Shown: positions 1,358-18,488 of the stretch, in pieces
Position numbering within the stretch: the first letter of the stretch is position 1
Layout: each line of letters starts with the position of its first letter
Virus record (IMG/VR): IMGVR_UViG_3300013372_001890
Span: 1 to 21,699 of that record
DNA length: 21,699 nucleotides
Reading direction: 5' to 3' (one strand)
Origin: a virus
Translations under genes and position numbers: made by a program
The notes under the pieces: generated by a model
What the model saw: only the letters and a program-made list of their open reading frames with translations
Database searches by the model: none
What the model was told of the DNA's origin: nothing

Positions 1358-1992
1358 TATCCGAGCCTCCGCATTTTGCGGAGACGGGCTTCCTCCCGTT
1401 TGACGCGTTGCTGGTTAGACAGTGCAATCTGGTTCATGGACAAAGCTGACACGTCAGAGTTTCCAGACTGGACTTGCCACTGTTGAAACGCTACTCGGTC
1501 GGAAAGCAATCGGTTAAAAGCTTCCGCCTGAGCCCACACTCGAACAGCATTGATGGCAGAGGTATCCATGTCTGTCGTAGATGTGCTAGAAGACAATTGA
1601 ATAAACGTGCTGTATCCAAAAATGCGAAGCGTACCTGGAGAAGAAAGGGTGTAGTGCGGAGGAAAAAAGACAATGTTGTTGTGAATTTCCCATCCAGAGT
1701 TTGGACCATCTGAAGTGGTGGGTAAAACTGTTTCCTTAAATTTTCCTGCAGCATCATATGCGTCGACTCTAAATGGCCATGAAACATCCGTTGCTGCAAC
1801 AGAAAACACAGAGCCAGAAATTGGTTGAGTAAACGCTGTTGTTTGAATTGCTTCCTTTGGGTAAAATCCATTGACCCAGTCAATACCAGAGTTGATTAAA
1901 TCATCAACCTCTGAGTCTGACCAGGTTGCACCGTTTGCGTCACGAAGATCCCTGCGGACCATCGTTCGAAGACTGCTGAGTGTTTCTGCCAT
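1357..1992 (-). CDS. Head-tail adaptor/connector-like protein
   Basis: This 211-residue protein starts with a helical segment (LRTMVRRDLRD, residues 8-18) and then WSDSEVDDLINSGIDWVN (24-41). This resembles the N-terminal helices of phage adaptor proteins that dock under the portal and join head to tail. A beta-rich middle (about 50-135) and a C-terminal helix (about 145-211) ending in many Arg and Lys residues follow. The ATG at 1992 lies 53 bases inside the end of the glycosyltransferase gene; it has a weak GGAA-type site just upstream, while the next Met (codon 11) has none, so I keep the longer form. Position shortly after the capsid gene and before a tail gene supports a connector role. 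T7-type tail-tube protein A or another head-completion protein is an alternative. Confidence 0.5.
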   Translation of the reverse strand: MAETLSSLRTMVRRDLRDANGATWSDSEVDDLINSGIDWVNGFYPKEAIQTTAFTQPISGSVFSVAATDVSWPFRVDAYDAAGKFKETVLPTTSDGPNSGWEIHNNIVFFPPHYTLSSPGTLRIFGYSTFIQLSSSTSTTDMDTSAINAVRVWAQAEAFNRLLSDRVAFQQWQVQSGNSDVSALSMNQIALSNQQRVKREEARLRKMRRLG

Positions 1993-3214
1993 GCTTCCAA
2001 ATCCCCTTATGCTCTACTGCCCATTTGAAGGCATCGGCCCATTCCTTGGCCCGATCCTTATAGTCGTATTCTTTAAGCACTCGTTCTTTAGCGGCGCCTG
2101 CAAGCTGATCCCGCAGGTCCTTGCTTCTAACTAAACTCTTTACTGCGTCAAACCATTGCTGTCGACCACGGACAACGAGTCCGTCAACGCCGTGGTTGAC
2201 CATTGAGTAGGGGGCTTCTCCGTACTTGAATCCTTCGCCAATGAATGCCGCCCCAACCATTGCGTATTCCAGCCAATGGAGTTCTGATTTGCAGCGGTCA
2301 AAGTCATCCCCTCCGAGCGGCGCAATCCCAATGTCTGCGTGGCTTCCTGCCAGCGTTTGGGAGAACTGTCGGATGTTCTCAACGTAGGGATACGCCTCAT
2401 CAAAGAACGGGACAATGACGTGTTCCGTCCCTGGGTTAACGCCGATGAAGACATTCCAGAGTTCCTTACGAAGGTCCTCTATCGCTTTACCAGCGTATCC
2501 GCCTTCCCACTTTCCGCCAACACCGCTGGGGTATCCAGCGTAGTCACGCATTCGCGCCGTGCTGCCGTAATAGACCACGCGTGGTTTGCTACCACCGTGT
2601 TCTGGGCGAGTAGCATCTGTTGTATAAATCGAAGGATCAATTGCATTTCTAATCACCTGAATGTTTTCGTTGAGATGTGAATACGCATCCTTGATTGGAC
2701 CCGTGCTGACAGTAACGAGGTCAGCCCTCCGTGCCATCCGTTCAATAAGCGGTCGCTCTGCCTGAACGTCTGGGTGGTATCCATTCCACGTACGGATCTG
2801 GAAGTGATTGTCGTCCGTCTCGTAGATGACCGCTTTATTAAATGTTTCAGACTCAAAGGCTGGCCACATCCACTCAGTGATGGCGTCGCGAAACTCCATC
2901 TTGTGTGGGTGTACCTGAATGGCGGCTGGATCTTTTGTCGCCGCGCCACAGGTGTTGCACTTGGCGGAGCAGTTGTAGTAGCGGCGGAACATCACAATGT
3001 CTGCCCAGTCAATGTCGCTGGTGTCTACCGACAGCAGACCTTTTCGCATCGCCTCATCCTGGGAGAGGCCCTGTGCGCCATCCTTGGCAATGAAGTTGAC
3101 TTTGTCAATGTGCTTGACGTTGATGCCCATCTTTTTCCACTCTTCGTCATACATATGACCACGGAAATAAGCGCAAGGACCTTGTTCGGCAGTGCCCCAA
3201 ACTAATACATTCAT
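1940..3214 (-). CDS. GT-B fold glycosyltransferase (GT4-like) with a cysteine cluster
   Basis: This 424-residue protein looks like a GT-B glycosyltransferase. The C-terminal donor-binding half holds ADIGIAPL (293-300), then KSELHWLEYAMVGAAFIGE (309-327) and HGVDGLVV (341-348), the usual family pattern of an acidic, Lys-containing loop followed by a helix and a G-x-DG-L-V stretch. A central RVVYYGS (212-218) opens the second Rossmann half. The N-terminal half carries CSAKCNTCG (82-90, CxxxCxxC) followed by VHPHK (101-105), which could bind zinc and is not standard for the fold. Donor and acceptor cannot be read from sequence; virion protein or host envelope glycan are both possible. It is the first gene after the strongest promoter in the window and has a GAGGAG ribosome site before ATG 3214. 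Its last 53 bases overlap the adaptor-like gene. Confidence 0.72.
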   Translation of the reverse strand: MNVLVWGTAEQGPCAYFRGHMYDEEWKKMGINVKHIDKVNFIAKDGAQGLSQDEAMRKGLLSVDTSDIDWADIVMFRRYYNCSAKCNTCGAATKDPAAIQVHPHKMEFRDAITEWMWPAFESETFNKAVIYETDDNHFQIRTWNGYHPDVQAERPLIERMARRADLVTVSTGPIKDAYSHLNENIQVIRNAIDPSIYTTDATRPEHGGSKPRVVYYGSTARMRDYAGYPSGVGGKWEGGYAGKAIEDLRKELWNVFIGVNPGTEHVIVPFFDEAYPYVENIRQFSQTLAGSHADIGIAPLGGDDFDRCKSELHWLEYAMVGAAFIGEGFKYGEAPYSMVNHGVDGLVVRGRQQWFDAVKSLVRSKDLRDQLAGAAKERVLKEYDYKDRAKEWADAFKWAVEHKGIWKHGRNTQQSSNDGPQGSS

Positions 3215-3314: not shown

Positions 3315-4286
3315 TTAGACGGCGACTGTTGCCTGCGTCTTCAGGATGCGATAACGGGCGCCAGCCTCATCGAGGAGGAGGGAGCCGAAGCGCATCTTGT
3401 AGCCGACCAGTGCCTTCTGAGCGAGCGGATCAGTATGATCGCCGCCTGGAGCCACGAAGTACGACTGAAGCGTCTGCGAATCGCCAATCGTGTAAGCGTC
3501 TGGTCCGAGGAACAGAGCGTTGTACACGTTGCCGCTCGAAGCACCAGCGGTCGCGTAGACCTTGGCGTCCGAAGACACAATAAAGCGCACGCCAGCAAAC
3601 ATACCAATCTCATTCGTGAGAAGTGGCATCTGGTTGACGTACTTGTTTGCTTCGATCCAGCCGTTTACCGAAGTGTCTGACACAAGGTCATACTCCTGTG
3701 AAGGGTGGATGATGCAGCGGAACGTGCCATCAGCGAACTGTGGAACGTTGCTGCCCTTGAGCCGAGCAACCATCTGCTTCACGAACGCTCCCGTCAACAC
3801 ACCAGCAGCGGCAACAGCCGAGTTAGCAGTGTTTGCGGTAAGCGTCGTTGCGCCAGTGGCGCCAAAGATTGCGCTCGTCTTTGCGGTGCTGTGAATCTCG
3901 TCGCGGACAAGAACGTCCATCGAGCGGGTCGCATTGTAAGCAATGCGCTCTGCAGCGATAGAAATCAGGTCATGCGGCGAGTCGATCTGAGCAAGGTCAG
4001 AGACTGCAACCGTCGCACCGAACTGTGCAGCGGTGAAGTACTCGGACGAAATGGTCAGAGCGCCATCGGTTGGAGCGGTACCTTCCGTAAGCGCCGTGGT
4101 GTTGACCGCAAGGTCAGCATAACGTGCGTAACGAAGGGTATTCGTTCCCTTAATGAAGCGAGCAGGGACGTAAAGCCCTGGCATCGCATGAACGGCTCGT
4201 GCTCGCAGTTCCTCTTGCGCTCGTGCAGAAACAAGTTCCTGTACGAGATCAGAAAAACCTGAGGTTGCCGTAGTGGTGGTAGCCAT
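3315..4286 (-). CDS. Major capsid protein, HK97 fold (N4 gp56-like family)
   Basis: This 323-residue protein has the features of the N4 gp56-type branch of HK97-fold capsid proteins. There is a short N-terminal arm, then a region about 44-85 corresponding to the E-loop and strands, and a long spine-type helix region (about 105-135, with DLISIAAERIAYN). The signature FRCIIHPSQEYDLVSD then leads into a WIEANKYVN helix and EIGMFAGVRFIVS. The C-terminus has a DPLAQKALVGYKMRFG segment and a closing beta strand. No N-terminal propeptide or protease gene is evident, and a separate scaffold gene lies 16 bases upstream, so assembly probably uses the scaffold rather than a fused delta domain. An AAAGGAG ribosome site precedes ATG 4286. 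It is followed by a strong hairpin and a new promoter. Confidence 0.85.
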   Translation of the reverse strand: MATTTTATSGFSDLVQELVSARAQEELRARAVHAMPGLYVPARFIKGTNTLRYARYADLAVNTTALTEGTAPTDGALTISSEYFTAAQFGATVAVSDLAQIDSPHDLISIAAERIAYNATRSMDVLVRDEIHSTAKTSAIFGATGATTLTANTANSAVAAAGVLTGAFVKQMVARLKGSNVPQFADGTFRCIIHPSQEYDLVSDTSVNGWIEANKYVNQMPLLTNEIGMFAGVRFIVSSDAKVYATAGASSGNVYNALFLGPDAYTIGDSQTLQSYFVAPGGDHTDPLAQKALVGYKMRFGSLLLDEAGARYRILKTQATVAV

Positions 4287-4302: not shown

Positions 4303-4860
4303 TTATCTACTAAATGGATTGCCAAGAGCCTTCAATCGATCACTGATTTCAGCACTCGTTGACGTTGATTTCTCCACTACTGGCTCTCGTCGTGGATTAT
4401 TTGGATCAATTCGAGGCTCCGACTCAACCTCAGAAACGCGGGAAGCAAGGAACTTTTCAAAGGCGGCCGCTCGGCCCTCTTCATCCAAGTTCACAGTGTC
4501 CTGGCGAAACTGTGCGTAGAGTGGGTGCTGCCTCGATAGCCGCTCCTGACGAGCTTCATCCTGCTGTTTAGCAAGAGTCTCCTCAAGCGTCTTGATCTTA
4601 AGTTGAGCCTTGTCGTATTCCGAAAGGTTCTTCTCTTCGATCTCAGCCTTCCACCTCTTCAGGTCATCGGCTTCCTTACGGATAGCATCGAGTTCCTTCT
4701 TGGTGGCGGTCAGGGCTTGGTCCTTACCAGCCAGCCGCTTCTTATAAGTGGCGACATCTTCACCCTCAGCCTGAGTGAGCGTGTCCTCAGCAGGGGCCGT
4801 AGCCTCTGCTGGAACTTGAGCTGACTCTACTGGAGCTTGTGCCACGACTTCATCCGGCAT
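4303..4860 (-). CDS. Capsid scaffolding protein
   Basis: A 185-residue, highly charged protein placed directly before the major capsid gene, the normal place for a scaffold. The N-terminal 35 residues are Ala, Glu and Pro rich. Residues about 38-110 form a long predicted coiled coil (heptad-like Leu/Ile and Ala positions among Lys and Glu), and a flexible Pro/Ser segment leads to a basic C-terminal end (RLKALGNPFSR), which in scaffold proteins often contacts the coat protein. I choose ATG 4860 because AGGAG sits 7 bases upstream; a GTG at 4884 in frame would add eight residues but has no clear ribosome site and lies in a hairpin. In cells it would fill the procapsid and leave or be degraded on packaging. 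No protease domain is seen. Confidence 0.75.
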   Translation of the reverse strand: MPDEVVAQAPVESAQVPAEATAPAEDTLTQAEGEDVATYKKRLAGKDQALTATKKELDAIRKEADDLKRWKAEIEEKNLSEYDKAQLKIKTLEETLAKQQDEARQERLSRQHPLYAQFRQDTVNLDEEGRAAAFEKFLASRVSEVESEPRIDPNNPRREPVVEKSTSTSAEISDRLKALGNPFSR

Positions 4861-4882
4861 TACTGTACTCCTATCTATTACC

Positions 4883-4899
4883 ACCCAGATTTTCTGGGT
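4883..4899 (-). other. Small hairpin between the giant 1753-aa gene and the scaffold gene
   Basis: Bases 4883-4889 pair with 4893-4899 (7 bp, three-base loop) right at the TAA stop of the 1753-residue gene. There is no following U-tract on the minus strand. It could separate translation of the rare giant protein from the abundant scaffold and capsid, or stabilise a processed message. It is short enough to be chance. Confidence 0.3.
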
Positions 4900-7800
4900 T
4901 TAATTCTTTCCTTGCAGAATGTCTGTAATGTTCAGACTATCTGGGGCCAAATCCGCGACCGGATTCTGTGTGAATATCTGGTTTGCAGCATTGAATCCAA
5001 GTCGCCACGACCCAGGTAGCGAAGCAGATACAACCTGATTGAATCCCTCTTGTGGGAAACGTCCAACATCAAACCCTTCTCCAGCCATACCCTTGGCCAC
5101 GCCCAACTTTCGCACCGTTGAGGAGAGACCAAACCCAATGTTGTCTGGGGTGTATGGAAGAAGCCAGTTAATAAGAATCCAGGCTTCTGGATTGTCTTGA
5201 ATCCATGAGCTAAACTCTGGATCGTATTGCGTTGCTGCAACCGTAGCCTCTGCCGTAATCCTCAGTGCCTCAACGCCAAGGAACGGGCGTGTCCCGCCAA
5301 GCGCCTTAGCAAATGGGGTTGCAACAAGCAATCGAGTAAACTCTGGGATAACCTTTCCTACCATGTAGGAGAGTGGATAAAGCGCAAGCAGTGGGTGGTT
5401 AAGACTTCGCTCAATCCACGGACGGTTAGGGTCGAAGTAAATTGCCCTCTGCGCACGCTTGCCCTCGTCAGCAGCCGCCTTACGGAATCCTGCTACAATG
5501 TTCTGATACGACTGAACTTCTGCGTCAGTCTTTCCTACTGTCTTATACATAAAGTCAGGAGGGGCCATCATATTTTCAATTGAATCGTATTGGTTAGTTG
5601 TCTTTTTAAATCCAAGCTTATAATAAAATGCCTTAGAGCTATCTGTTACATCATGGACATACATCCCGATACCCTCAGCCTTAGCTGCTCGATGGGCATC
5701 AGCAAGCAGTGCAGACCCAGTCCCGCCACCTTTCTGGAACGCGCCAAGGTGTGTGACGGCAATGTTATCTAGAATGTCTTCTCCAGTAAGTCCAGCACGA
5801 AGCTTCTCTGGGACAAACAAGGCAAAGCCAGAGATGTTCCCATCAGCGTCATATGCGACCTTCCACTTCGCGGCCTTGCGAACCTTTGGGTCCCACATGA
5901 AGTACCTATTCAAACCGTCCTTTAGAACTGAGAATGCAGTCCCTGCCTGTTCGCTCTGCTTAAGAGTCTTGATGTACTCACGGCCTTGGTCAGGGAACAC
6001 CTGGAATCCATTTTTAAAGTTTCTAATATCTATGGTACCGTTTTTTAGGTTACCCTCAATATCATCAAAAATGTCAGATATATCTTCTTCATTAAAACCA
6101 ATTTTTCCGTAGGAGTTTTTTGATTTTTCAACATAAAATTTAGCATCTGGCTTGCCAGAATAGAACTCTTCTGGGTTTGGATTTCTATTAAGATAATCTT
6201 TCTTTTTTGCAGGATTGTTTTTAACAGCATTCCAGTCTGGAAGTTCTTCTTCTAAGGCAAAAAGTCTTTCTTCCTCTACCCTCTTTGCGGCAGTTTCCCA
6301 GGTGTCGTCATAGTTAAACATGTGACGAGCAATTGCACGACCTTTTGGTGTTGCAAGCATTTCTTGTGAGATAGATTTTGACCCGCCATAATAATCTTCT
6401 ATAGCCTGAATTGCTGATACCTCATCACGTTTGTAGCTTGAAAGTGGCCTTGGTCCAGTGGCCTTAGTCCCAACAGACCTAGCCCTATCAACCGTTGCAG
6501 ACATATGCTTGTTCAAAAGTCCTTGAATGTCAGAAACAGCCCCCTGCTCATCCCACCATTTTCCATCAAAACCCGAGCTTCCGCCAGTCTTTGTTTTAAC
6601 TTCTCCAAAATCCTTAAGAACTCTTGCCGTTGCATCAGCAACGTCTTTCTTTGTTGGATTTTTCCCAAGTTCCTTTATTGCCTTTGCAAGCATCGCATCT
6701 TGGTCTGCACTTTTCTTTTCAAAGAAAAGTGTTCTAGCATCATCTATCGAAACATTTTCTTTAACTGCCATTTTTAGTATGCCTTTGTTATAATTGTCTG
6801 CACCATACTGAAATAGCTCTTCTAGTGTTTTACCTTCCTTTTTAAAAGCTTCTTGCTCAAAAGCTTCTTGCTCGGCAGTAAGATTATAATCGTCAACAAC
6901 ATCATCAACAACATTATCAGCAGAATCAAAATCAGTAAAGTCGTCAAGGAGCTGCTTCAGGTCCTCTGGGTCATCCAGCTCTAGAATTTCACCGCCAGCG
7001 TCAACAAACCTTTTTTCGTTGACAGCAACTTCTGTTGCAACAACTCCACGGCTAGTAAACCCTCGCATCATTGCAACATCGACACCAGCATCCATCAGCC
7101 TTTGTGCTGACACTGGGTCAGTTCGGCCAATAAAGTCAAGACCAATAATATGCATAACGTCTTCTGGTTCTGACGTTCCAAAGAACCTCTCTAGGTTTGG
7201 AAGCTCTTCTGGAAGGTGCTCGGCAAATACGCGATTAGCTCGAAGCGAAGCACCGCGAGAAATCATTGCCTGCATGGTTCGTTTCTTTCGATCAGTTACC
7301 GCAAGGATGCCGTTCTTCATGGAAAGACGTACGTCCTTAAACTCGGCGTTTCCTCGGGCAAAACTTCCAATGGCCTCCCAGAACGTAGGAGCCTTAGTCC
7401 CCATCTGTTGAGCAGTCTGATTTCCAGCAACCATGAAGACCGTCTGTGCATCGCCAACTTCTCGGACAGCGGCGTACTCTCCAATGATTGCACGAGTTCG
7501 AATATCATTCTTTGTAAGTCCAGCAATACGTTCTTCACGTACGCCAGCGCCAGTGGTAAACCTAAAGAACACTGGCTCAATGTTTTCTTGGATGTATTGG
7601 AATTGTGGAGCAAGTGTACCGAATCGGCTTGCTGGGTAAAACCTGTCGGTAACGATTGCGATCTTAGGGAACTGCATCTTTATCCGCGACGTAAGCGCAG
7701 GCATGATACCAATGTCATCAATATGCCCAGCATACGCCCTCATCAACCCATTGAAGACTTGTGTCCACGCCTCCTCTACTGGAACTCCAGCCTTTGCGGC

Positions 7801-10161
7801 AATGCGCGCAAGAGCTTCTTTTCCAAGAGCAGCGTTGATTGCCTTGGCAAGAGGATTACCTGGCCCCATGACTGCCTCGTAGGAAAGACCTCGAGGCAAT
7901 GTCTTATATTGGTCCGCCAAGTCATTCATGACATTCCACACAGCACGAGACTCTGACTGGTTTAGCCCAACGGCGGTTGTCTCTTCCACAAATCGGTTGG
8001 TAGCCTTTGCCTGAATCAACGATCCATAGCGAGGGCTAAAGGCGTAGCGAAGCATCTCTTGAAGCGGATTTCGCTTGTAGGTGAGAAGGTCTCCGCCAAG
8101 GTTTTGCGGGTTGGTAAACGCAGTATCAACAAGATCCGCGTATGGTGAGTATGACTTAGCGTGGTAGTATCGGCCATACTTGTCCTGCAGCGTTGACCAC
8201 TTCTGGATGACCCCATCCTCTGGTGCAATGCCTAGACGATAGCCAACCTTTTCCGCCTGGACCCAGTACTGCTTTGCTTCATCGCTAAGTTCCATAAGCT
8301 CATCAGCCTGAATATCAACAGCAAACGTCTTGCTGTTATCGTTAAGGAAGTTTCTCATATCATCCTTAAGTTCTTCTAGCTGCTTTTCGTCAAGAGCATC
8401 AAGATCAATACGACCAAATCGACCATAGAGCTCGTCGTACTGGTCAGTACTTTGCCGAATTGCGGCCTTCAATTCTTTTCCACTAAGTCCCTTAATCGTT
8501 GTATCGATCTCACTCGCTCGTGCGCGTGAGAGCGTTCTCTGGGAGATAAGTGTAATACGAGACCCAATGCCAGTCATTGTCTGTCGGACATTGGCGATCC
8601 CCTGGGCAAGCTTGCCGTAGGCTGGTGCGCGAACAAACTCGAGGAAGTCAAGCGCGTCGCTGACGTTTCCAGCGTTGATTGCAGGAAGGATTAGTTCGTC
8701 AAAGAACTGGTCAGCCTGCACTGTGCTTCGCCCCAATGCATACCCAAGGCCGTTGCGAACAAAGGCACGAGCTGCGTTTACGTCAGTTGTTAGCGGAAGT
8801 AGTTCCTGCTTACCAGAGATAAGAAGTTTTGCCCCAGCAACAACAACGCTATTTCCGTGGAGTCGACCCTGGATTGCAAGCGCCTCTTCAGCGGACTGTG
8901 CGCTATCGATAGCAAGAGCTCGAAGCTGTAGATTTGCCTGAATAGAATCTTTAATTTCTTTAATCTCTTCAGGGAAATTAATTGCCCTGCTGACAGAATT
9001 AATAAGTTTTCCTCGTGAGTTATTTGGAATCATCCCGGCATCAAGTAATGGGGTAACAGCAGCAAGTGCTCCCTTTTCGTCACCAGCTTCAACAAATGGG
9101 CGGACTGTTTCTATAAGAGAGTTAACAAAATCGTCGGCACTACCTTGCACAGCAAGCGCCGCCTGGTCCTCAATGAGCGCAGCAGCCCCACCCTTGGCCG
9201 CTTTGCCCATGGTAAAGGAGGTAAGTTCGGAAGCGGTCTTAATAACGGTGTCGGCTTCTCCAGGAGATGACCTAGCAAGTGCGGCAACAGCAGCCCTAAT
9301 GTTTCTTGGCTTATATGCCATCTCGAGGATGGTGTGCGCTCGGCCAGCAATGGCGCTTGCGAATGCCTTAGAAGTACCGCTCAACGTTCCGCCGATAGCG
9401 TTGTACACCTGACCAACTGGCTGCCATAGGCGCATGAACTCTGAGTCTTTGGCTGCAAGAAGCGCCCCAGTCTTTACTGCCTTAATCAATCCTCCTGCTC
9501 GAGCAGCGCCAGAGGCAATTGCTCCACCAGGAATGTATGTAATTGGGTCAGTAATAAGACCAAGGACAACGTCGCGGACAATGTCCGGTTTTGCTCCAAA
9601 CGTTCGTCCTTCGCTGTAGATAGTTTGGGCAATCTCGTCGACCGTCGCACCAGCATCAACCATAGCTCGGATTGAGCCGATGTCGTAGTAATCTTTGACG
9701 CTCTGGAAATTAGATCCAGACTGATCCTGCAAGAGTTTCTCTGCGGCGGACTTGGCAATAATATCCTTTTGGACAAATCGAGAAGGAGCCGAGATGACAT
9801 CTAGTGCGGCGCCAGGGATTCCAGACACCACATCGCCAACACTTGGACCAGCCTCAAATGGTCGAATCGATCCGACAACATTGCCAACGGCACCAACTGC
9901 ACCACCGACTGTCTCAACGGCTCCCTTGAGGAGTCCGCCAACACCAGGCACCGATCCGATAAGTCCAAGAAATCCTTGGCCAAGACCCTCTAAAGACTCA
10001 CCAAACGTATCTGGTTTAGTAATATTTACCGAAGCACGACCTGGTCCAGCACCAAAGCGAGACGACCCAGTAGATCCGCTACCCTGGGACGGGAGTGAGA
10101 TGTCGCTATCAAGAGCGGTATATCCACCAGTTCCTGGCTTAACAGAAAAGATACTTGGCAT
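4900..10161 (-). CDS. Giant (1753-aa) putative injected virion protein with GNAT acetyltransferase domain
   Basis: I do not recognise the whole protein. A Gly/Ser-rich start leads to a hydrophobic glycine-zipper-like segment (about 58-99, GGAVGAVGNVVG pattern) and then long helical regions to about 1065. Residues about 1067-1390 are very acidic and charged and are encoded by AT-rich DNA. Residues about 1405-1525 form a GNAT domain: a GNISGFALFVPE strand pair (from about 1442), an IAVTHLGAFQ strand (about 1467-1476), acetyl-CoA loop GGGTGSALL (1478-1486) and a terminal AFYYKLGF (about 1511-1518). A hydrophobic helical region follows (about 1588-1650). The size, the mosaic build and the location between portal and scaffold fit the 'polyvalent protein' class of phage proteins thought to be delivered into the cell with the DNA. 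The substrate of the acetyltransferase is unknown. The start is TAATG-coupled to the 928-aa gene, with a strong GGGGGAGG site. Confidence 0.6.
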   Translation of the reverse strand: MPSIFSVKPGTGGYTALDSDISLPSQGSGSTGSSRFGAGPGRASVNITKPDTFGESLEGLGQGFLGLIGSVPGVGGLLKGAVETVGGAVGAVGNVVGSIRPFEAGPSVGDVVSGIPGAALDVISAPSRFVQKDIIAKSAAEKLLQDQSGSNFQSVKDYYDIGSIRAMVDAGATVDEIAQTIYSEGRTFGAKPDIVRDVVLGLITDPITYIPGGAIASGAARAGGLIKAVKTGALLAAKDSEFMRLWQPVGQVYNAIGGTLSGTSKAFASAIAGRAHTILEMAYKPRNIRAAVAALARSSPGEADTVIKTASELTSFTMGKAAKGGAAALIEDQAALAVQGSADDFVNSLIETVRPFVEAGDEKGALAAVTPLLDAGMIPNNSRGKLINSVSRAINFPEEIKEIKDSIQANLQLRALAIDSAQSAEEALAIQGRLHGNSVVVAGAKLLISGKQELLPLTTDVNAARAFVRNGLGYALGRSTVQADQFFDELILPAINAGNVSDALDFLEFVRAPAYGKLAQGIANVRQTMTGIGSRITLISQRTLSRARASEIDTTIKGLSGKELKAAIRQSTDQYDELYGRFGRIDLDALDEKQLEELKDDMRNFLNDNSKTFAVDIQADELMELSDEAKQYWVQAEKVGYRLGIAPEDGVIQKWSTLQDKYGRYYHAKSYSPYADLVDTAFTNPQNLGGDLLTYKRNPLQEMLRYAFSPRYGSLIQAKATNRFVEETTAVGLNQSESRAVWNVMNDLADQYKTLPRGLSYEAVMGPGNPLAKAINAALGKEALARIAAKAGVPVEEAWTQVFNGLMRAYAGHIDDIGIMPALTSRIKMQFPKIAIVTDRFYPASRFGTLAPQFQYIQENIEPVFFRFTTGAGVREERIAGLTKNDIRTRAIIGEYAAVREVGDAQTVFMVAGNQTAQQMGTKAPTFWEAIGSFARGNAEFKDVRLSMKNGILAVTDRKKRTMQAMISRGASLRANRVFAEHLPEELPNLERFFGTSEPEDVMHIIGLDFIGRTDPVSAQRLMDAGVDVAMMRGFTSRGVVATEVAVNEKRFVDAGGEILELDDPEDLKQLLDDFTDFDSADNVVDDVVDDYNLTAEQEAFEQEAFKKEGKTLEELFQYGADNYNKGILKMAVKENVSIDDARTLFFEKKSADQDAMLAKAIKELGKNPTKKDVADATARVLKDFGEVKTKTGGSSGFDGKWWDEQGAVSDIQGLLNKHMSATVDRARSVGTKATGPRPLSSYKRDEVSAIQAIEDYYGGSKSISQEMLATPKGRAIARHMFNYDDTWETAAKRVEEERLFALEEELPDWNAVKNNPAKKKDYLNRNPNPEEFYSGKPDAKFYVEKSKNSYGKIGFNEEDISDIFDDIEGNLKNGTIDIRNFKNGFQVFPDQGREYIKTLKQSEQAGTAFSVLKDGLNRYFMWDPKVRKAAKWKVAYDADGNISGFALFVPEKLRAGLTGEDILDNIAVTHLGAFQKGGGTGSALLADAHRAAKAEGIGMYVHDVTDSSKAFYYKLGFKKTTNQYDSIENMMAPPDFMYKTVGKTDAEVQSYQNIVAGFRKAAADEGKRAQRAIYFDPNRPWIERSLNHPLLALYPLSYMVGKVIPEFTRLLVATPFAKALGGTRPFLGVEALRITAEATVAATQYDPEFSSWIQDNPEAWILINWLLPYTPDNIGFGLSSTVRKLGVAKGMAGEGFDVGRFPQEGFNQVVSASLPGSWRLGFNAANQIFTQNPVADLAPDSLNITDILQGKN
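5990..6950 (-). other. AT-rich insert inside the giant protein gene
   Basis: Within the 1753-residue gene this stretch is much poorer in GC than its flanks. By direct count lines 6061-6120, 6121-6180 and 6181-6240 hold 16, 22 and 18 G or C of 60, while line 8461-8520 has 28 of 60. It encodes about residues 1070-1390, a Lys/Glu/Asp-rich helical region immediately before the GNAT domain. The reading frame stays open across both borders. The contrast suggests a domain acquired from another source, although biased codon use in a charged linker would also lower GC. The borders are estimated by eye. Confidence 0.5.
6844..6873 (-). repeat. Perfect 15-bp tandem duplication
   Basis: The 15-base unit at 6844-6858 is repeated exactly at 6859-6873, giving two copies of the pentapeptide EQEAF in the giant protein. 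It keeps the frame and lies near the upstream edge of the AT-rich block, just after an acidic DVVDDVVDDY run. A recent replication-slippage event is the simplest explanation. Confidence 0.85.
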
Positions 10162-12947
10162 TAACGACCTCCCCCGCCCTTACCAGCAACAATTGTTGGA
10201 ACTGACGAATTGATTGGAGTAACTGACCCATTTAGAGGAGCTATCTCTCCAGCCCGGAATGCGTTAAATGCCGCCTGGGCCGCTGGGGTAACAGATGCAG
10301 CCTTAACAGAAGTCATAACTGGTCCGTACCCTTCTACTCCAACAATGTTTACCGCTGGAGAAACCCCGCCGCTACTCATCCTTGGAGTGATAGTAGAAGC
10401 TGGCCTGAGTCCTGGAGAAATTGTTACGCTTGATGGGCCAGGAGCGGTAATCTTATTGAACATTCCAACAGCTCCTTGGCCAATTACATTTCCAATTGCA
10501 CCAGCTACACCTATTGGATTTGCAAGCGTTGCAAGACCACGGAAAACAAATCCAAGGTCAAATTCAGTTTTGTTGCCAGCACCAGTTGGTGTAGCCTGAT
10601 TAATCCCATTGTACGATATAGGCTGCTGCGGCTGAACCGCACCGCCAGTCTGATAATTAGTGCCAAACGATCCCCTTGTATCAATTGGTCTAATGGTTGC
10701 TAGCTGTACAAATTCTTCTTTCTTCTTTTGAACTTTTGCTGCCGCAAGTTCTGCATTCATCATGGCAATTCGTACGCCAGGATCTTGGCTGACACTTGCC
10801 ATGTTTGATAACTCCGTTTGAGTTTTAGTTGTTTTTTCAATAAGTGCAAGTGTTTCAACAGCTAGTGCGCTATTTGCTGGAACGGTATCAAGAATTGACT
10901 GAAGAATAATGTTGGTACCTTGAATTCCAACTAACGCAGGGTTGTCCGAGTTAACCCTTGCGTACGGGTTTACCATAAGCGACTGAGCCTTAGTCGAAGC
11001 GTTTGGATTTACAAGGTCTGACAATACAGCTTCTGTTCCAGAAATAGTTGACTTAATCTGGTATACCTCTTGATTGTTAGGAAGGACTGTCTTCTTTGAT
11101 TCACGGGAAATAATGCTCTTCCCGTCAGCGGCAAGCATCAGTTTTCCAATATCCAAAGGTGGCGTCTTATAAATAATACCATCCTTAGAGGCATACATTG
11201 GACCTACTGAAGTTTCAATCTTATAGCCCCAAAGCCCCATGTCAGAGGTGTCTGGCTGCCCAGCATATGATCCGTAGATTGGAACTCCCTGATATTGCGC
11301 TGCGTAGTTGTTTCCAGCGGCGTCCTGTTCAAGTCGAGTAATATAACCAGCTCCTGGTGCGGGAGATTTTATGTCAGTAATCAATGGTGGTAGGCTAGGA
11401 TCTGATGGATAGCTAATTTGCTTTGTCCCATTAAGGAAACCAGCATCATATTCTACTGTATCAATAACATTTGAAAACTCAGCAATGCTGTACCTATTGT
11501 CACCAGTTGTGGTAGTATCTGGAAGTTGAGGAAGGAACCCAGACGATACAAGTGAAGGAATTACCTCATCCATAAGCGTACTTGGGATTTGAGTAATTTT
11601 TTCACCACGAAGTGCAGCTTCATAAAGTCCTGCTTCGTTATCGATCTTTACCTGGATTTCATCTAATGCTGGATTGGTAATCGTTTCAAGTCCATCTCCA
11701 AACATTGTAGTAGTTTTTCCACGGAGGAACATTGCCCACTGGGTCATCACAATCTTTTCATTTCCAGGAATATTACCTGCGGCAGTCATGAAGATTGCCT
11801 TTTTCTGCACGCCAGTAATGTATTCGTCGTACGACGTGTTCTCACCAGAAACCTTTTTGGTAGCAGTAACTGTTGCTGAGGCGGTAAGCGCCTCCTCGGA
11901 GTTACCCTTACCTTGGCTGTTAAGCACGTTGACGTATCCCTTTGAAGCTCGAGCTGCCTCATCGAGAGCCACTTGCACCTCAATGCGTGTGCTCTCTGGC
12001 TGTGATTCAAGCCAAGCAGTAAGACCAGCAGGGCTGGCCTTCTGAAGATCAGCAAATCCAAACGTAGCAGAAGATGTATCTACGCCAAGTGTTGATCCAA
12101 TTGCCTTTGCAAACGCATTAAGTGTTCCCATCGCGGAGTCGTATGATTCCTTGCGTTGCAACAGGAAAGATGCTGCGGCTGCATTTGATGCATCAACCTC
12201 TTGCTTCTTGATGAGATCCTTAGTGTTTTGGATTTCAGTTGTTATATTAGAATAAAATGTTCCACCAATACCTGCTGTTTCAAGTTTGGTTTTCCACCCT
12301 TCATACCACGAAAGAAGTTCTTTATTTGCGGCAATAACCTTTGAGGCCTTTTTCCCATTGGCCTTATCAACCATGTCCTGAACCAGAACTAGTTGGTATT
12401 TGTACAAATTGCTATTAACATCAAATTTAACATCGTTGTAGGTATTAGCGTCATCGACAACAGCAGAAAGTGCTTTCTGAGACAGCGAGTCATACTCTTC
12501 CTCTGTGATGTTTGACTTTACAAGGTCATTGTATGCATATGTTACATAGTTCTTTACAACTTGCTCTAGGTCAGTGCCATACTTTCCAGCACCCTCTCCC
12601 TTGAGGAATGCGACGTACTCTTCAAAATTTGCCCCAGTGTTTGCAGTAAATGATTCGCTAAGACTTTTGTTGGTTTTATCTGTCTGAAAACCTTTTGCAT
12701 TTGCCAACAGATTATCATAATACGCAATCTCAGCTTGGCTAAGATTTCCCTCAGCAAGTCGTCCGTTAACAAAATTTTGAAGATCTGAGAAATTGGTATT
12801 TTCGCCACCATAAAGACTGCCATCGTAGAATGAGTTAAACAGTGCGCTCTGTTCGAGGTTCCTATTCTGTGTAGCAAGACTTCTAATAAAGGAACTTAAA
12901 TTTTGCTGCCCAGACGTTGATCGTCCGAACCTACCAATCCTTGCCAT
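10161..12947 (-). CDS. Large (928-aa) putative internal virion/ejection protein
   Basis: No family is recognised. The N-terminal two thirds (about 1-500) look mainly helical and charged, with coiled-coil-like stretches, for example around KKQEVDASNAAAASFLLQRKE. The middle (about 500-650) is beta-like and Gly/Pro rich, followed by more helix. Near the C-terminus residues 801-831 form a Gly/Ala/Ile hydrophobic segment containing GVAGAIGNVIGQGAVG, similar in flavour to the one near the N-terminus of the 1753-residue protein. The last 80 residues are Ser, Pro and Gly rich. The gene is TAATG-coupled at both ends, with a GGAGGT site inside the end of the portal gene, so it is probably made together with portal and the giant GNAT protein. 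Podovirus-type ejection proteins or a minor head protein are the best guesses. No enzyme motif is seen. Confidence 0.45.
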   Translation of the reverse strand: MARIGRFGRSTSGQQNLSSFIRSLATQNRNLEQSALFNSFYDGSLYGGENTNFSDLQNFVNGRLAEGNLSQAEIAYYDNLLANAKGFQTDKTNKSLSESFTANTGANFEEYVAFLKGEGAGKYGTDLEQVVKNYVTYAYNDLVKSNITEEEYDSLSQKALSAVVDDANTYNDVKFDVNSNLYKYQLVLVQDMVDKANGKKASKVIAANKELLSWYEGWKTKLETAGIGGTFYSNITTEIQNTKDLIKKQEVDASNAAAASFLLQRKESYDSAMGTLNAFAKAIGSTLGVDTSSATFGFADLQKASPAGLTAWLESQPESTRIEVQVALDEAARASKGYVNVLNSQGKGNSEEALTASATVTATKKVSGENTSYDEYITGVQKKAIFMTAAGNIPGNEKIVMTQWAMFLRGKTTTMFGDGLETITNPALDEIQVKIDNEAGLYEAALRGEKITQIPSTLMDEVIPSLVSSGFLPQLPDTTTTGDNRYSIAEFSNVIDTVEYDAGFLNGTKQISYPSDPSLPPLITDIKSPAPGAGYITRLEQDAAGNNYAAQYQGVPIYGSYAGQPDTSDMGLWGYKIETSVGPMYASKDGIIYKTPPLDIGKLMLAADGKSIISRESKKTVLPNNQEVYQIKSTISGTEAVLSDLVNPNASTKAQSLMVNPYARVNSDNPALVGIQGTNIILQSILDTVPANSALAVETLALIEKTTKTQTELSNMASVSQDPGVRIAMMNAELAAAKVQKKKEEFVQLATIRPIDTRGSFGTNYQTGGAVQPQQPISYNGINQATPTGAGNKTEFDLGFVFRGLATLANPIGVAGAIGNVIGQGAVGMFNKITAPGPSSVTISPGLRPASTITPRMSSGGVSPAVNIVGVEGYGPVMTSVKAASVTPAAQAAFNAFRAGEIAPLNGSVTPINSSVPTIVAGKGGGGR

Positions 12948-15247
12948 TAAACGTTACCTCCTGCTGGTGGCATTAGTTGTTCACCATTTGCCAATGTTTG
13001 ATCGATTGGTTGCCCAGATGAAAGAGGGGCTCCGTTTGGTGCTAATGCATTGGATGGAACTGCACCCGCTGGTGGCTGTGCTTGATTCTCAAGCTGGTTA
13101 AGCGATTGAGATCCAGACGGCTGCTGTTGAAGCATCCGTGCAGTATTTTCCACGCTTGCCTGCTGCTGCGCAAACTGCTCCTGAGCCGCCTGTTGCTGCT
13201 GCAACTGCATCTGCTGGAACATCTGAACAAGGTTTGCCATAGCCATAACAGCGGATGGATTGAGCGTTGCATCGGTCTGTTCGTCTCGAATGACTCCCAT
13301 CTCGCCCTCTGGGTCCTCGACACCAACGCGATCCATTGCGCGGCTTGCGCTCCAGATACGGTTCTGTACAAGGTTGATAGCGGTCTGAGCAAGCTCGAGT
13401 GTGTCTCGAGGAGTTAGCTCAGGTGGGGTAATCTCAATTCGGTAGTTGCCGCCAAAGATGACGCCAACCTTCTTATCCTTTGTCTCCCAGATCTTGGCGC
13501 ACAAACGCCATACCTGCTTGATCCATGAATAGAGTAGCTTGCGCTTTGGAGCAATGCGTGCTTCATAGTTAGCCACGAGCGACGCGATGGCGCGGGATGA
13601 CCCGAGCACGCCCGAAGGAGCAAGCCCGAGGAGGAGGTCATTGAGTCCCGTCACCACCGCAATCTCACGGTCGATACGCTTGTTGTAGTCTTCAATCTGG
13701 AACTGAGGAATAAACGGCGAGATTGAGCGAATTTCATTGCCAGGTCCAGGTGCTGCCATCTTTCCAGGCTTTGGGATAGCATTGGCCGGAATCTCATCTG
13801 GTGCCTCTGCGCCAACCAACTGGAACATCTGACCACCAATAACTGAGTGGATCATCTGTGCCTGGTTAGTAATACGTTCGTCCTTCTCCCTTAGGAGTTG
13901 CTCAACGTCATACAGTTCCGGTTTGCCGTAAGGGCTTCCAGGAACCTTGGCGTTGGGGAGAAGGATGTATGGTAGGTCCCCTCGGAACTCTGCATGCTTT
14001 GTATTCTTTACCAGTGTGTTGCCGACAAATATGGCGTTATAAACTGTTGGAGCCTTGCCTGCAACTCCAGGAACCTTGTACCAGTAGTCGTATACTTCAA
14101 CCTGCTGCATCTCGTACGGTGTTTCGCGTCGAAGTGGGTTGCGCTCAAATTGGTTTAGGTAAACGTTGGCAATTGGATCATCATGGGTTGAGGCGGTGTA
14201 GTTGTACCACTTGCCACCCTGCTGTGTTGGGACAACTCGAATGCCATAATCCTCTTCAACTGCCTGCGGAGACATGCCGTAGCAGTAAAGAGCCCAGTCT
14301 ACTCGGCTAAAGTCAGACACGCCAAATCCAAGGTAGAGGTTTTCTGGTGACTCTACAATGCGTACCTTTGGCATCTGCTTTTCTGCATCCCAATAAATCT
14401 TAGCTGCAGTGTATCCGTAAAGCGCCTTAATAAAGCATGCGTCTTCAAGAACAAGGTCAAACTCATTCTCTTCAGCCCAGCGAAAAAACAGCCTTTCTGC
14501 GTTAGCTGCCTTAGCGCGTGAATCATTATCCTGTCCCTCTGGGACGTAGTTAATCACTGGCATCACTGCCTGCAACGAAGCTGGAATGTTGACGTACGCA
14601 GCATGGACGTTGACTGAAACGTGGGCTCGACCAGCGGTTCGAGCTGTTGCGTCATCTGCCCAATGGTCTGCTCCACCAAGCGTCACAATGTTTGGATGGT
14701 AGAGGTTATCAAAACGTCGGAAGATTGCACGAAGTCGGTTCTGCTCTGGCTCCGTTGTCTGCTTGCGCATAAGCACTTCACCAAATAGTTTGAACCCAGG
14801 GTCTTCTTCTGGAATAACGTTCTGAATCTCAAGAGAAGCCTTAAGCATTTTAATGGATGCAGTCTGAGATTCACTCAACTTACTAACATCAAGTTTTGCG
14901 TAATTCTTTTTAATTGGGGTGCCCTTTGACCCAGTTGAATAATTAAGAATTGTAGGAGAAGTTACAATTTCAGGAGAAGTTGCGGATACGCCCTGGCTCG
15001 CGGGGGCAGGGGCCCTCTCCGTCGCTCCTGGGCCTGTTTTAGGGGCTTTTAGGGACGATACTAGAGGGCTAGACTTAGGCATCAGGGTATCAACGCGCTG
15101 TCCCTGTCCAATTTTCTTTGCCTTGTCAAGGGCTGTCCCAATAGAACGGATCTGTTCAGGCGTGGCGATATCAGGGTCAGTAGTATACTGCCCTGGAATT
15201 GCTCGCGTTCCCTGGAACGCCTTTGGGATTCCTCGAACCTTAGCCAT
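12947..15247 (-). CDS. Portal protein
   Basis: At 766 residues this is a long portal. A low-complexity N-terminal extension (about 1-130) precedes the core. Typical portal pieces are a two-helix start (QNRLRAIFRRFDNLY), a wing region with VNVHAAYVNIPASLQAVMP, and a clip and stem region with LYDVEQLLREKDERITNQ and RIDREIAVVTGLNDLLLG. A long helix ahead of the crown carries SSRAIASLVANYEARIAPKR. From about residue 675 it is rich in Gln (LQQQQAA) and later Pro, Asn and Gly, a tail likely to sit inside the capsid as barrel or linker. It forms the dodecameric DNA gate, binds the large terminase during packaging and later the adaptor. The start is TAATG-coupled to the terminase stop with GGAGGAAG upstream, and its own stop couples the 928-residue gene in the same way. 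Confidence 0.88.
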   Translation of the reverse strand: MAKVRGIPKAFQGTRAIPGQYTTDPDIATPEQIRSIGTALDKAKKIGQGQRVDTLMPKSSPLVSSLKAPKTGPGATERAPAPASQGVSATSPEIVTSPTILNYSTGSKGTPIKKNYAKLDVSKLSESQTASIKMLKASLEIQNVIPEEDPGFKLFGEVLMRKQTTEPEQNRLRAIFRRFDNLYHPNIVTLGGADHWADDATARTAGRAHVSVNVHAAYVNIPASLQAVMPVINYVPEGQDNDSRAKAANAERLFFRWAEENEFDLVLEDACFIKALYGYTAAKIYWDAEKQMPKVRIVESPENLYLGFGVSDFSRVDWALYCYGMSPQAVEEDYGIRVVPTQQGGKWYNYTASTHDDPIANVYLNQFERNPLRRETPYEMQQVEVYDYWYKVPGVAGKAPTVYNAIFVGNTLVKNTKHAEFRGDLPYILLPNAKVPGSPYGKPELYDVEQLLREKDERITNQAQMIHSVIGGQMFQLVGAEAPDEIPANAIPKPGKMAAPGPGNEIRSISPFIPQFQIEDYNKRIDREIAVVTGLNDLLLGLAPSGVLGSSRAIASLVANYEARIAPKRKLLYSWIKQVWRLCAKIWETKDKKVGVIFGGNYRIEITPPELTPRDTLELAQTAINLVQNRIWSASRAMDRVGVEDPEGEMGVIRDEQTDATLNPSAVMAMANLVQMFQQMQLQQQQAAQEQFAQQQASVENTARMLQQQPSGSQSLNQLENQAQPPAGAVPSNALAPNGAPLSSGQPIDQTLANGEQLMPPAGGNV

Positions 15248-16743
15248 TAATCACTTCCTCCATAATACGTAAATGCCGGGTCTTTAACTGGTTGCTCTGG
15301 GTTTCTTGATGCGTGCCATGCCGCAAGGGCAAGTGCCATTACCGCATCGGTAGTAAGTTTCTTGTCGTTAAGCTTGTATGAGAACAACTGTCGTCGAAGG
15401 TCATCCCATGGTTGCCCACGAGGAATAACAATCATCTTCTTATCGAGCATTGACTTTAACGTGGCAAGAAGATTAAGCTTCTTTGCTTTTGTGCCGCCAA
15501 AGTCGTACCCACGAAGTGGCTTGATAATGCTAAACTCTTGTCGGAAAAGTCTTCCACCAAGGCCAGTCTCATCAACAATCGTTGTGCAGAATGCTCCGTC
15601 TTGCTGATAAAGCAAGGCATTCTCCCTAACCATATTGACTACTGCTGGGATCGTCTGCTTTCCCTCACGCTTTCGTGCGCGAACTGCGGTGATGCGAGTT
15701 CGGTCCGTATAATCGAGTACGACCGTCCATGTTGCGTCAGAAGAAATACCGGGGTCACATCCTTGGACGTACCGATGTCCCCTGTGTGGCGGAAGCTCTG
15801 TAGGTGCGTCAGTATCAAAGGCTCCTTCGATTGACTGCGACGCGAAGTATGCGTCTCGTGATTCGATGAAGTATCCATCGACGTTCTGGGGTACGAGGTA
15901 TTCTGCCTGTTGTCGTACAATGGAGTCGAAGTTAGCTGCTGTGAGTCCGTATCCAACATTGTCGCGGGTTGAAAGCCGAAAGGAGATAAACTGTGGGTCC
16001 CTGCTCGGGTTCTCGGTATTTCCCATTTCCCAGAGGTCTGAGTAGTCTCCGATGCCTTCCGTCGGCGTACCGATGAAGTGGAGCGGACCACCCGTTGAGA
16101 GGCGCCGAAGGTTGAGTACCTCTTGGTAGATCTCCACCAAGTGTGGCTCGAATGCCGCCTCGTCGAACGAGATGCCATTCATGTCCTTCCCGAGAAGCGC
16201 CTTAGCTTTCTCCTGCGTTGTACGGAAATGGATGCTTGCTCCACCGACCAAAGGATGGAACTTGATCCAGAGATACTCTCCTCGGTACTTCTTATCCAGT
16301 GTTGCAATTGTCCCAAGTTCATCCTTGAGTGGGCATCCCTGCCCTTTTTGCGCTGGATGGTTACCGCTTAGAATAGATGATATTTCGCGGTGAACAAGCT
16401 CGGCGGTCTCTTGCTGAATTCCAATGTGATACCAGTCGTACGGTACGTTGGACCATCTTCGAGCGTCATCGGGATCGTTTGGATTTGGCTGTTGAATGCC
16501 CATTTTGTACAAGGCATGGTGAAGGCAGAGTACCGCCATCGCCATTGTTTTCCCCGCACGATTCCCTGCGGATACGACAGTAGTGAGGTATCGGGGACGA
16601 TACCCTGATTCATCTCGCTCCTGGCATGCATTCCACCAACTGACTTGTCCTGGGTGGCCTTTAATGCCAAGCCAGCGCCGAGCAAAGAACTCGATGTCAG
16701 TGCGACCGAGAGCCAGATCTCGTGCAATTTCATTATCGAGCAC
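15247..16743 (-). CDS. Terminase large subunit (packaging ATPase-nuclease)
   Basis: This 498-residue protein has both terminase domains. ATPase: Walker A SAGNRAGKT (58-66), Walker B GISFDE with D194 and E195, and coupling motif FIGTPTEG (223-230). RNase-H-like nuclease: first acidic residue in GCDPGIS (D330), second in TTIVDETG (D391), third in TTDAVMALALA (D466). It drives genome packaging through the portal and cuts the concatemer. The only upstream start in frame is GTG 16743, preceded by AAGGGG with short spacing; it overlaps the end of the preceding small gene by 11 bases. The stop is TAATG-coupled to the portal gene. All key residues are present, so it looks functional. The packaging strategy (cos, headful or terminal repeats) cannot be read here. 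Confidence 0.93.
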   Translation of the reverse strand: MLDNEIARDLALGRTDIEFFARRWLGIKGHPGQVSWWNACQERDESGYRPRYLTTVVSAGNRAGKTMAMAVLCLHHALYKMGIQQPNPNDPDDARRWSNVPYDWYHIGIQQETAELVHREISSILSGNHPAQKGQGCPLKDELGTIATLDKKYRGEYLWIKFHPLVGGASIHFRTTQEKAKALLGKDMNGISFDEAAFEPHLVEIYQEVLNLRRLSTGGPLHFIGTPTEGIGDYSDLWEMGNTENPSRDPQFISFRLSTRDNVGYGLTAANFDSIVRQQAEYLVPQNVDGYFIESRDAYFASQSIEGAFDTDAPTELPPHRGHRYVQGCDPGISSDATWTVVLDYTDRTRITAVRARKREGKQTIPAVVNMVRENALLYQQDGAFCTTIVDETGLGGRLFRQEFSIIKPLRGYDFGGTKAKKLNLLATLKSMLDKKMIVIPRGQPWDDLRRQLFSYKLNDKKLTTDAVMALALAAWHASRNPEQPVKDPAFTYYGGSD

Positions 16744-17044: not shown

Positions 17045-17586
17045 TACTTCACCTCGTTGTGGTAATATAGAACTCGATTGCAAAAGGCGATAGATTTTGC
17101 CTTCTCAACAATCTTGTCAATGAAGGTACCGTCAGCCTCGTAGTGGCGATCGGAGTACCCAACAGAGCGACCCTTGTCGATCTGTACAATGTAGTTTCCA
17201 GAAGTTGAACTTCCAGACTTAAATTGCGGAGTATTATTCCTAGACCATCCACAGTATACCACATCGTTCCCAGACTCTGCAAGTCTCATCATGTCTACAA
17301 CGTAGTCTGGGTGGTAGGAGTCATCATGGTTAAACCATCCAGCGTAATCTGAGGTTGCAAGGTCGAGACCCTTTGCTCGCTTTGCATGACCCCAGTCCCC
17401 AAGGTTTGGCTCCTCGTAGAAGCGAACTAGTGGGAACTCTTCCCTGAGTTTGTCCAGACTAATGTCCGAAGCTAGGGCAATGATTTCATCTGGCTTTCGT
17501 ACCTGCCAGGTATAGAGGTCTGTCAGTATCCTTCGAAGGTTCTGTTCATCTGCATGAGCAGTCACAATCGCTGTCAGCGTCGCCAT
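17044..17586 (-). CDS. GT-A glycosyltransferase, family 2-like
   Basis: A 180-residue protein with the nucleotide-sugar-binding half of a GT-A fold. It has an LTAIVTAH opening strand (4-11), a PDEIIALASD segment (32-41), a helix with GHAKRAKGLDLATSDY (66-81), and metal-binding acidic pair HDD (87-89) in GWFNHDDSYHPDYV. A possible acceptor-site YEADGTF lies at about 149-155. At 180 residues it is shorter than typical family 2 enzymes (usually 230 or more) but holds the core motifs, so it is probably a compact active enzyme rather than a fragment. GGAGG sits 6 bases before ATG 17586, inside the cytidylyltransferase gene, which it overlaps by 41 bases. That tight pairing suggests the two enzymes work on one product, a glycan on the virion or host wall. 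Donor and acceptor are not readable. Confidence 0.75.
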   Translation of the reverse strand: MATLTAIVTAHADEQNLRRILTDLYTWQVRKPDEIIALASDISLDKLREEFPLVRFYEEPNLGDWGHAKRAKGLDLATSDYAGWFNHDDSYHPDYVVDMMRLAESGNDVVYCGWSRNNTPQFKSGSSTSGNYIVQIDKGRSVGYSDRHYEADGTFIDKIVEKAKSIAFCNRVLYYHNEVK

Positions 17587-18007
17587 TTATCCTCCGAATA
17601 ATATCTGTGCTAGAAATTGATGGTGTATATGGGATGTAGACCATTTCTATTGCTCGGTCCTTAAGCCATGTCCTAGTGATGCCTAGCTGTCCAAGAAGCG
17701 ATTCCCCAGTCCAGTCGTCACCATGGGCGATGTACCCAATCTCTCGATTAGTAATCTTGTCGATTGTTAGTCCGGTGTCCTCATCGCCAATGTTGATGCA
17801 GACATCGTCTACGTACTTGCAGCCAATCAATGACTCCATGCGCTCACCGACAGTTAGGATCGGTGGCCTCTTGTATCGAGAAGCAAAGTCATCGGTATTC
17901 AACGACACAATGACTGGTCCATGTTTCTGTGCTTGCTGGAGGAACTTCATGTGTCCGTAGTGAAACAAATCAAATGTTCCGCCAACGTAGACCCATGGCT
18001 TATTCAC
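17546..18007 (-). CDS. TagD-type cytidylyltransferase (CTP:alditol/polyol phosphate)
   Basis: A 153-residue nucleotidyltransferase of the glycerol-3-phosphate/ethanolamine-phosphate cytidylyltransferase group. Its opening strand VYVGGTFDLFHYGH contains the HxGH motif (H16, H19); KRPP follows at 46-49, VGERMESL at 53-60, GDDW at 96-99 and the second signature ISSTDIIRRI at 131-140. It should make a CDP-alcohol, such as CDP-glycerol, from CTP. I choose GTG 18007 because GAGG lies 6 bases upstream and the family begins right before the first strand; ATG 18019 in frame would add four residues but lacks a ribosome site. The C-terminal tail DADSDCDCSCR is unusual and is encoded where the next gene's start overlaps. 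It follows the putative small terminase with an 8-base overlap. Confidence 0.82.
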   Translation of the reverse strand: MNKPWVYVGGTFDLFHYGHMKFLQQAQKHGPVIVSLNTDDFASRYKRPPILTVGERMESLIGCKYVDDVCINIGDEDTGLTIDKITNREIGYIAHGDDWTGESLLGQLGITRTWLKDRAIEMVYIPYTPSISSTDIIRRINGDADSDCDCSCR

Positions 18008-18488
18008 CTTCAACCTCATAGACTGGAGTTGCTTCAATAACCTGGTAGGTTGCCGATGCTCCCCCAAGGATCTGGGCAAGCGATACGACCAGGTCGCGGT
18101 CAGCGGTCTTATCGTTTCGCTTGTCCATCATCTCCTGAGCTCTCAGGCCCTCGGAGAGTGTGGGAGTCATGCTCCCAGACTCTACCTCAGAGAATACGTA
18201 ATCACGCACAAGCGTTGCAAGGTCTCGATGTTGCGCCTTAATGGTTTTCTGGGATTGCTCCATTTTCTTTACTGCAGCAATCCTAGCCGACTCATGTGGC
18301 GATGTAAGATGTTCTCGCTTATGCTTGCCAAGCGTGTTACGACTAATGTAATAACCCTCGTCTTTTAGCCAAGACGCAATCTTAAGATCTGGCATTCCGT
18401 CTTTCATCCTCTTGTTGATTAGCTCAACCAGTGGACTCCGACAGACATGGCATCCAGTCAATACTGGAGCAAGGTCTGAGACCTGCAT
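18000..18488 (-). CDS. Putative DNA-binding protein, candidate small terminase subunit
   Basis: A 162-residue protein. The N-terminus has CHVC (13-16), then a helix-turn-helix-like run: MPDLKIASWLKDEG (32-45), YYISRNTLGKHKREHL (46-61). This arrangement, a Cys pair followed by a helix-turn-helix ending in HxxxH (H56, H60), is common in small phage proteins and could bind zinc. The rest is helical (about 65-140), with a long basic and acidic helix that could oligomerise. Location a few genes before the large terminase and the DNA-binding look make a small terminase the best guess, but two or three genes separate them. A transcriptional regulator is the main alternative. ATG 18488 is TGATG-coupled to the holin gene. 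Confidence 0.45.
   Translation of the reverse strand: MQVSDLAPVLTGCHVCRSPLVELINKRMKDGMPDLKIASWLKDEGYYISRNTLGKHKREHLTSPHESARIAAVKKMEQSQKTIKAQHRDLATLVRDYVFSEVESGSMTPTLSEGLRAQEMMDKRNDKTADRDLVVSLAQILGGASATYQVIEATPVYEVEGE

Follow-up and report, generated by a model that had tools for sequence, protein, structure and literature searches.

Organization of the Locus

The stretch of DNA analyzed here (the window) is a virus record of 21,699 bases, which lies inside a 41,111-base IMG/VR contig, as judged from exact matches at a constant offset. The genes considered below are encoded on the minus strand, in the order terminase, portal protein, a 928-residue protein, and a 1753-residue protein, with a one-base overlap at each junction. 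The terminase large subunit (498 aa; 15247..16743) was identified by phrog_2 (E=1.1e-17), and the portal protein (766 aa; 12947..15247) by phrog_156 (E=1e-11) and, weakly, by SPP1_portal. Downstream of the 1753-residue gene lie the genes of a scaffold-like protein, the capsid protein, a glycosyltransferase, and an SU10-type adaptor. The major capsid protein (323 aa; 3315..4286) matches phrog_1357 (E=1e-41) and Phage_capsid_4 (E=3.4e-10). The 193-residue product of 4303..4884 has no above-cutoff family match in Pfam or PHROGs, and we regard it as a putative scaffold protein from its place before the capsid gene and its charged, coiled-coil-like sequence. The glycosyltransferase gene (1940-3214, minus strand) is located between the capsid and adaptor genes, while a gene upstream of the terminase (17546-18079, minus strand) encodes a heptose-phosphate adenylyltransferase-like protein, the same gene in contig L233 matching phrog_7878 at E=3.9e-24; the virion gene cluster thus includes sugar-metabolism genes. 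The 928-residue protein (P0002; 10161..12947), whose gene overlaps the next by one base, has homologues of 914-929 residues in the related contigs L005, L006, and L012, and no family match in Pfam or PHROGs. It is possibly a second ejection protein.

The 1753-residue protein (P0001; 4900..10161), which we propose to be an ejection protein with a cargo slot, is an open reading frame with a family of 71 distinct homologous frames. Judging from identity to relatives and alignment occupancy, residues 1-1030 (7072..10161) form a conserved core, which shares 46-64% identity with the proteins of L005, L006, and L012. Residues 1031-1395 (5977..7071) form a variable, AT-rich linker, defined by composition and low alignment occupancy, in which no domain was recognised. 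Residues 1396-1546 (5524..5976) form the GNAT acetyltransferase domain described below on the basis of profile matches, AlphaFold, and Foldseek, and residues 1547-1753 (4903..5523) form a conserved C-terminal domain with the motif ERSLNHP...YPLSYM (72% identity to L005 and 62% to L012). Contigs L002 and L003 carry the gene without a single nucleotide difference, and neither stops nor frameshifts were found across the three contigs. An assembly chimaera or a frameshift is therefore unlikely, and both readings were rejected in view of these identical near copies in separate contigs and the unbroken frame.

A GNAT Domain in the 1753-Residue Protein

The first-pass annotation had placed a GNAT acetyltransferase at 5580-5950, that is, at residues ~1405-1528, and its motifs are located as claimed: GFALFVPE at residues 1445-1452 (5806-5829), GGGTGSALL at 1478-1486 (5704-5730), and AFYYKLGF, which contains the conserved Tyr1513, at 1511-1518 (5608-5631). 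Acetyltransf_7 of Pfam matches residues 1435-1520 up to the profile end (E=8.8e-4; 20 bits vs. a curated cutoff of 27), and the acetyltransferase family phrog_3810 matches the protein at E=1.8e-4, while NCBIfam added nothing. The L005 homologue (1610 aa), which is 32% identical to the window protein in the GNAT region, independently matches Acetyltransf_1 (E=5.5e-4; 20.6 bits vs. a cutoff of 20.7). The majority of matches were GNATs when either sequence was searched singly against the PDB, and a profile built from the two had a best E-value of 1.2e-3 in the PDB and matched 42 chains at E<=1, of which almost all are acetyltransferases by name. The best PDB match was 3fb3 for the window GNAT and AAC(3)-XI for the L005 form. 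The similarity to GNAT-superfamily profiles therefore consists of several independent weak matches, all to GNATs and in two divergent members, with single scores below the curated cutoffs. A GNAT-only scan of viral contigs returned no contigs beyond those already in the set.

The acetyl-CoA loop, GGGTGS at residues 1478-1483, was judged to agree with the consensus Q/R-x-x-G-x-G/A, reading K-G-G-G-T-G in the window and R-E-Q-G-I-G in L005, with K instead of Q/R at the first motif position in the window. The G-x-G loop and the FYxxxGF tyrosine are kept in both forms despite their 32% identity, as would be expected for an active enzyme. A VOC/bleomycin-resistance reading of FYxKLGF (Ble-like_N, E=0.042) was rejected because the match covers no more than 18 residues and does not reach the CoA loop, which is located upstream.

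The AlphaFold model from the two-sequence alignment was poor (pLDDT 43.5), yet the PDB matches listed for it were still acetyltransferases. An alignment of eight sequences, namely those of the window and L005 plus six picked by the AFYxKLGF motif, gave a pLDDT of 72 and a pTM of 0.68. The best PDB match of this second model in Foldseek had an E-value of 4.5e-5 and a probability of 1.00, with TM-scores of ~0.5, and among the matches listed (best 50 PDB) all were acetyltransferases or complexes containing one. It also matches viral acetyltransferases. The test with the eight-sequence model is partly circular because the alignment already held GNATs, while that with the two-sequence model is not. 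Weak Pfam and PHROGs matches, the two-sequence profile against the PDB, and two AlphaFold models agree, and we find the assignment convincing because these individually modest tests do so; residues ~1396-1546 are thus confirmed, by profile comparison and predicted structure, as a GNAT acetyltransferase domain.

The linker that precedes this domain has a GC content of 0.401 and a GC3 of 0.301, compared with 0.50-0.51 and 0.41-0.47 in the flanks, and values this low occur in only 0.4% of equally long windows of the 41-kb contig. In L005 the linker is likewise low, at 0.422 (as low in 3.1% of windows), and the composition of the GNAT itself is closer to background than that of the linker. The AT-rich linkers of foreign composition in both GNAT lineages are signs of acquisition. 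Since the residues directly after the GNAT match in the two lineages (APPDFMYK and APQDFLYT), the two inserts are probably of one origin and diverged quickly thereafter.

An Undescribed Protein Family with a Variable Slot

A search of 50,697 phage records for relatives of the large protein, the portal, and the terminase gave none, and the large proteins of two relatives were likewise without a match there. Capsid relatives in these records were all below 32% identity, and the family profiles did not match three phage records with a distantly related capsid. A search of GTDB genomes with the C-terminal domain found no relative, and for this reason we draw no inference about the host. IMG/VR contains many relatives of the large protein, on contigs that are presumably mainly of freshwater origin. 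The conserved scaffold of the window protein has no family match in Pfam or PHROGs, and the protein, judging from its homologues, belongs to an undescribed phage protein family encoded in the terminase-portal-928 aa-1753 aa operon. In L033, L036, L040, and similar loci, the portal is ~83% identical to that of the window and the large protein only ~26%, a sign of between-phage exchange inside the operon.

The family set comprises 71 distinct open frames with the C-terminal domain, which is present in all of them by construction; because near-duplicates and some truncated frames are included, the counts given below are of distinct sequences and not of independent events. In an alignment of 26 members, mean column occupancy is ~0.85-1.0 up to residue 1000 and 0.72 at 1001-1050, falls to 0.05-0.20 over 1051-1550, and returns to 0.88-1.0 over 1551-1750. 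The insert lies between the conserved core of ~1030 residues and the conserved C-terminal domain of ~200 residues, and the GNAT is its distal end. The length of the slot was measured between two flanking profiles, its start being approximate in some long members since the core profile matched only partly. The slot is empty (40-66 aa) in 41 of the 71 frames, including that of L012, in which the core joins the C-terminal domain almost directly. It measures 190-270 aa in 17 frames, of which the members tested gave no domain match, and 795-2061 aa in a further 11. The two GNAT forms, L005 (395 aa) and the window protein (549 aa), are the only ones found among the 71. What the first-pass annotation overlooked is thus the main point, namely that the GNAT sits in a dispensable, hypervariable slot and is absent from most relatives.

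Alternative Cargo in Relatives

ADPrib_exo_Tox matches the slot of four relatives of 2668-3021 residues, encoded at L106:521-9106(-), L107:457-9006(-) (weakly), L108:776-9841(+), and L139:2591-10597(+). The first three have in common a stretch of ~200 residues after the ADP-ribosyltransferase (ART), to which no domain was assigned; a kinase reading of this stretch was a motif impression only and gained no support from a PDB search. HExxH motifs, which are motif matches only and mark putative peptidases, occur within the slot of L139/L137/L141, L183, L167, L185, L181, and L184. The L139 slot has the ART and the HExxH motif together, as well as weak Alt-like PHROG matches. A short match to the designed eight-bladed propeller Tako8 (E=3e-4) was also seen at L139:5798-10000(+), so that beta-propeller repeats may be present in the slot in addition to the ART.

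Two relatives, L089:5761-12213(+) and L166:4070-10555(+), have a short main slot (49 aa) and, at a different site, an insert of ~750 residues that contains an HExxH (zincin) motif. Because this insert is more N-terminal, the scaffold possibly accepts insertions at more than one place. The zincin region of L089 shows homology (E=5e-12) to that of a 1657-residue phage protein, L220:7047-12020(+), which has a GNAT-like stretch and a HEAGH zincin region and is typical of described polyvalent proteins. The profile of the window GNAT matches the GNAT-like stretch of L220 at E=0.45, and the two GNATs are not close. In the podovirus record MW202801.1 (L236), which has a distantly related capsid, a late-region gene (24392-24979) is annotated as a ribosomal-protein-L7/L12-serine acetyltransferase and is possibly a stand-alone GNAT among virion genes.

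Relation to Known Systems

The polyvalent proteins encoded by phages and conjugative elements fuse several functional domains, including GNAT, ART, and MPTase domains, in one polypeptide. Their packaging, injection, and action on host proteins have been proposed, as a prediction for most members (Iyer et al., 2017; PMC5512222). GNATs in such phage proteins are already known; two families have been described, which belong to a RimI-like, protein-modifying clade, and the phage type is tied to an ART beside it in the polypeptide (PMC5512222). The first-pass annotation had likened the window protein to this group, and the likeness is borne out by the gene order and by relatives whose slot contains an ART or zincin-type motifs. 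The protein is very large and encoded among virion genes, adjoining those of the terminase, portal, and capsid, and its relative in L089 shares the zincin region with the polyvalent-style protein of L220. In contrast to polyvalent proteins, however, the window protein has one recognised enzyme domain plus conserved regions without assignment, the family has a single principal slot, flanked by a conserved part on either side, with no enzyme in most members, and the GNAT and the ART occur in separate relatives rather than in one polypeptide.

The ejection genes of gp15 and gp16 are adjacent in T7-type phages, and entry of gp16 into the cytoplasm has been proposed. Proteins of the gp16 type differ from one another in size and domains, some of them with an enzyme domain that is missing from others (PMC8954989). 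P0002 and P0001 are likewise two adjacent large late proteins, of which the second is larger and variable in size and domain content. There is no detectable homology, however, and the window genes are located between those of the portal and the scaffold and capsid, with slot cargo of the host-modifying type and not a cell-wall hydrolase. Alt of T4 is an ADP-ribosyltransferase that enters the cell together with the DNA and acts on host proteins (PMC5512222), and it serves as a model for the possible role of the slot enzymes, although Alt is a separate head protein, while the window enzyme would use acetylation chemistry and forms part of a large structural-locus protein.

Proposed Function and Its Alternatives

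No tape-measure-like gene was recognised among the late genes of the 41-kb contig, which suggests, as an inference from absence, that the tail is short; a weak Sipho_tail match in a 322-residue protein does not fit such a tail. A profile of 26 members gave no credible PDB match, and clear transmembrane segments were not seen, hydrophobic stretches being moderate and confined to the N-terminal part. Because homology of the core to solved ejection proteins was undetected, the comparison is to proteins that work alike and not a claim of membership. The one-base-overlap operon with terminase and portal, the adjoining second large protein, and the lack of a tape-measure-like gene make packaging and injection of the 1753-residue protein plausible.

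Our proposal is that this phage, whose tail is probably short, carries the protein inside the virion as an ejection protein. The core and the C-terminal domain would serve a structural and DNA-entry role and would flank one exchangeable cargo slot. The slot of this lineage is filled by the AT-rich linker of ~365 residues ending in the GNAT, and that of sister phages by ADP-ribosyltransferases, HExxH (zincin-like) stretches, unassigned sequence, or nothing. During infection, the protein would leave the virion with the DNA and enter the host, where the GNAT would use host acetyl-CoA to acetylate a host macromolecule before phage gene expression. We lean toward this reading as a whole, an ejection protein with an exchangeable enzyme slot and a GNAT acting on host molecules at entry, with modest confidence. 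The more specific early targets named in the first-pass annotation (a defence protein, toxin, or polymerase component) have no specific support.

The GNAT may instead be an inactive fold, either a spacer or binding module or a domain decaying since insertion, which would agree with family scores below cutoff, a CoA-loop motif that opens with K rather than Q/R, the quick divergence from the L005 form (32%), and its absence from most relatives. We consider this unlikely, given that the G-x-G loop and the FYxxxGF tyrosine are preserved in two strongly diverged lineages and that the frame is free of stops and frameshifts in three contigs. It is rather improbable that the GNAT is delivered but has a non-protein substrate, whether aminoacyl-tRNA, as for toxins of the TacT/AtaT type, or a small molecule, for example an antibiotic or a polyamine. 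The best structure and sequence matches do include GmvT, KacT, TacT2, and AtaT, along with acetyltransferases of small molecules, but such matches are expected for nearly any GNAT, and TM-scores of ~0.5 do not discriminate substrates. Polyvalent GNATs were moreover placed in the RimI-like, protein-modifying clade by Iyer et al., a clade that may include the window GNAT.

The enzyme might also work in assembly, with no host target, by acetylating proteins of the phage itself (capsid, portal, or ejection proteins), and its gene does lie among co-expressed head genes, so that it would meet phage structural proteins first. Close relatives whose portal and capsid are well conserved (62-87% identity), as with L012, are however without the domain, and the slot of other relatives contains ADP-ribosyltransferases, a pattern that does not point to a fixed assembly step; we therefore regard this explanation as quite improbable.

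Implications

One fixed site that is empty or differently loaded in sister phages suggests a cargo bay for host-modifying enzymes. We put forward, as a tentative generalization, that a widespread ejection-protein family with one swappable slot, into which enzymes (acetyltransferase, ADP-ribosyltransferase, and perhaps peptidases) are inserted by recombination, might be a general delivery platform with cargo that differs among phages. ADP-ribosyltransferases of freshwater phages have been read as anti-predator toxins (PMC6802176). The position of the ART in the slot of L106, L107, L108, and L139 suggests delivery to the bacterial host rather than such a toxin. If the cargo bay is true, some of the ADP-ribosyltransferases reported in freshwater phages are possibly injected host-modifying enzymes like T4 Alt. 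In that case, a scaffold that occurs in nature both with and without cargo would also be a ready experiment on which enzymes phages deliver with their DNA, and why.
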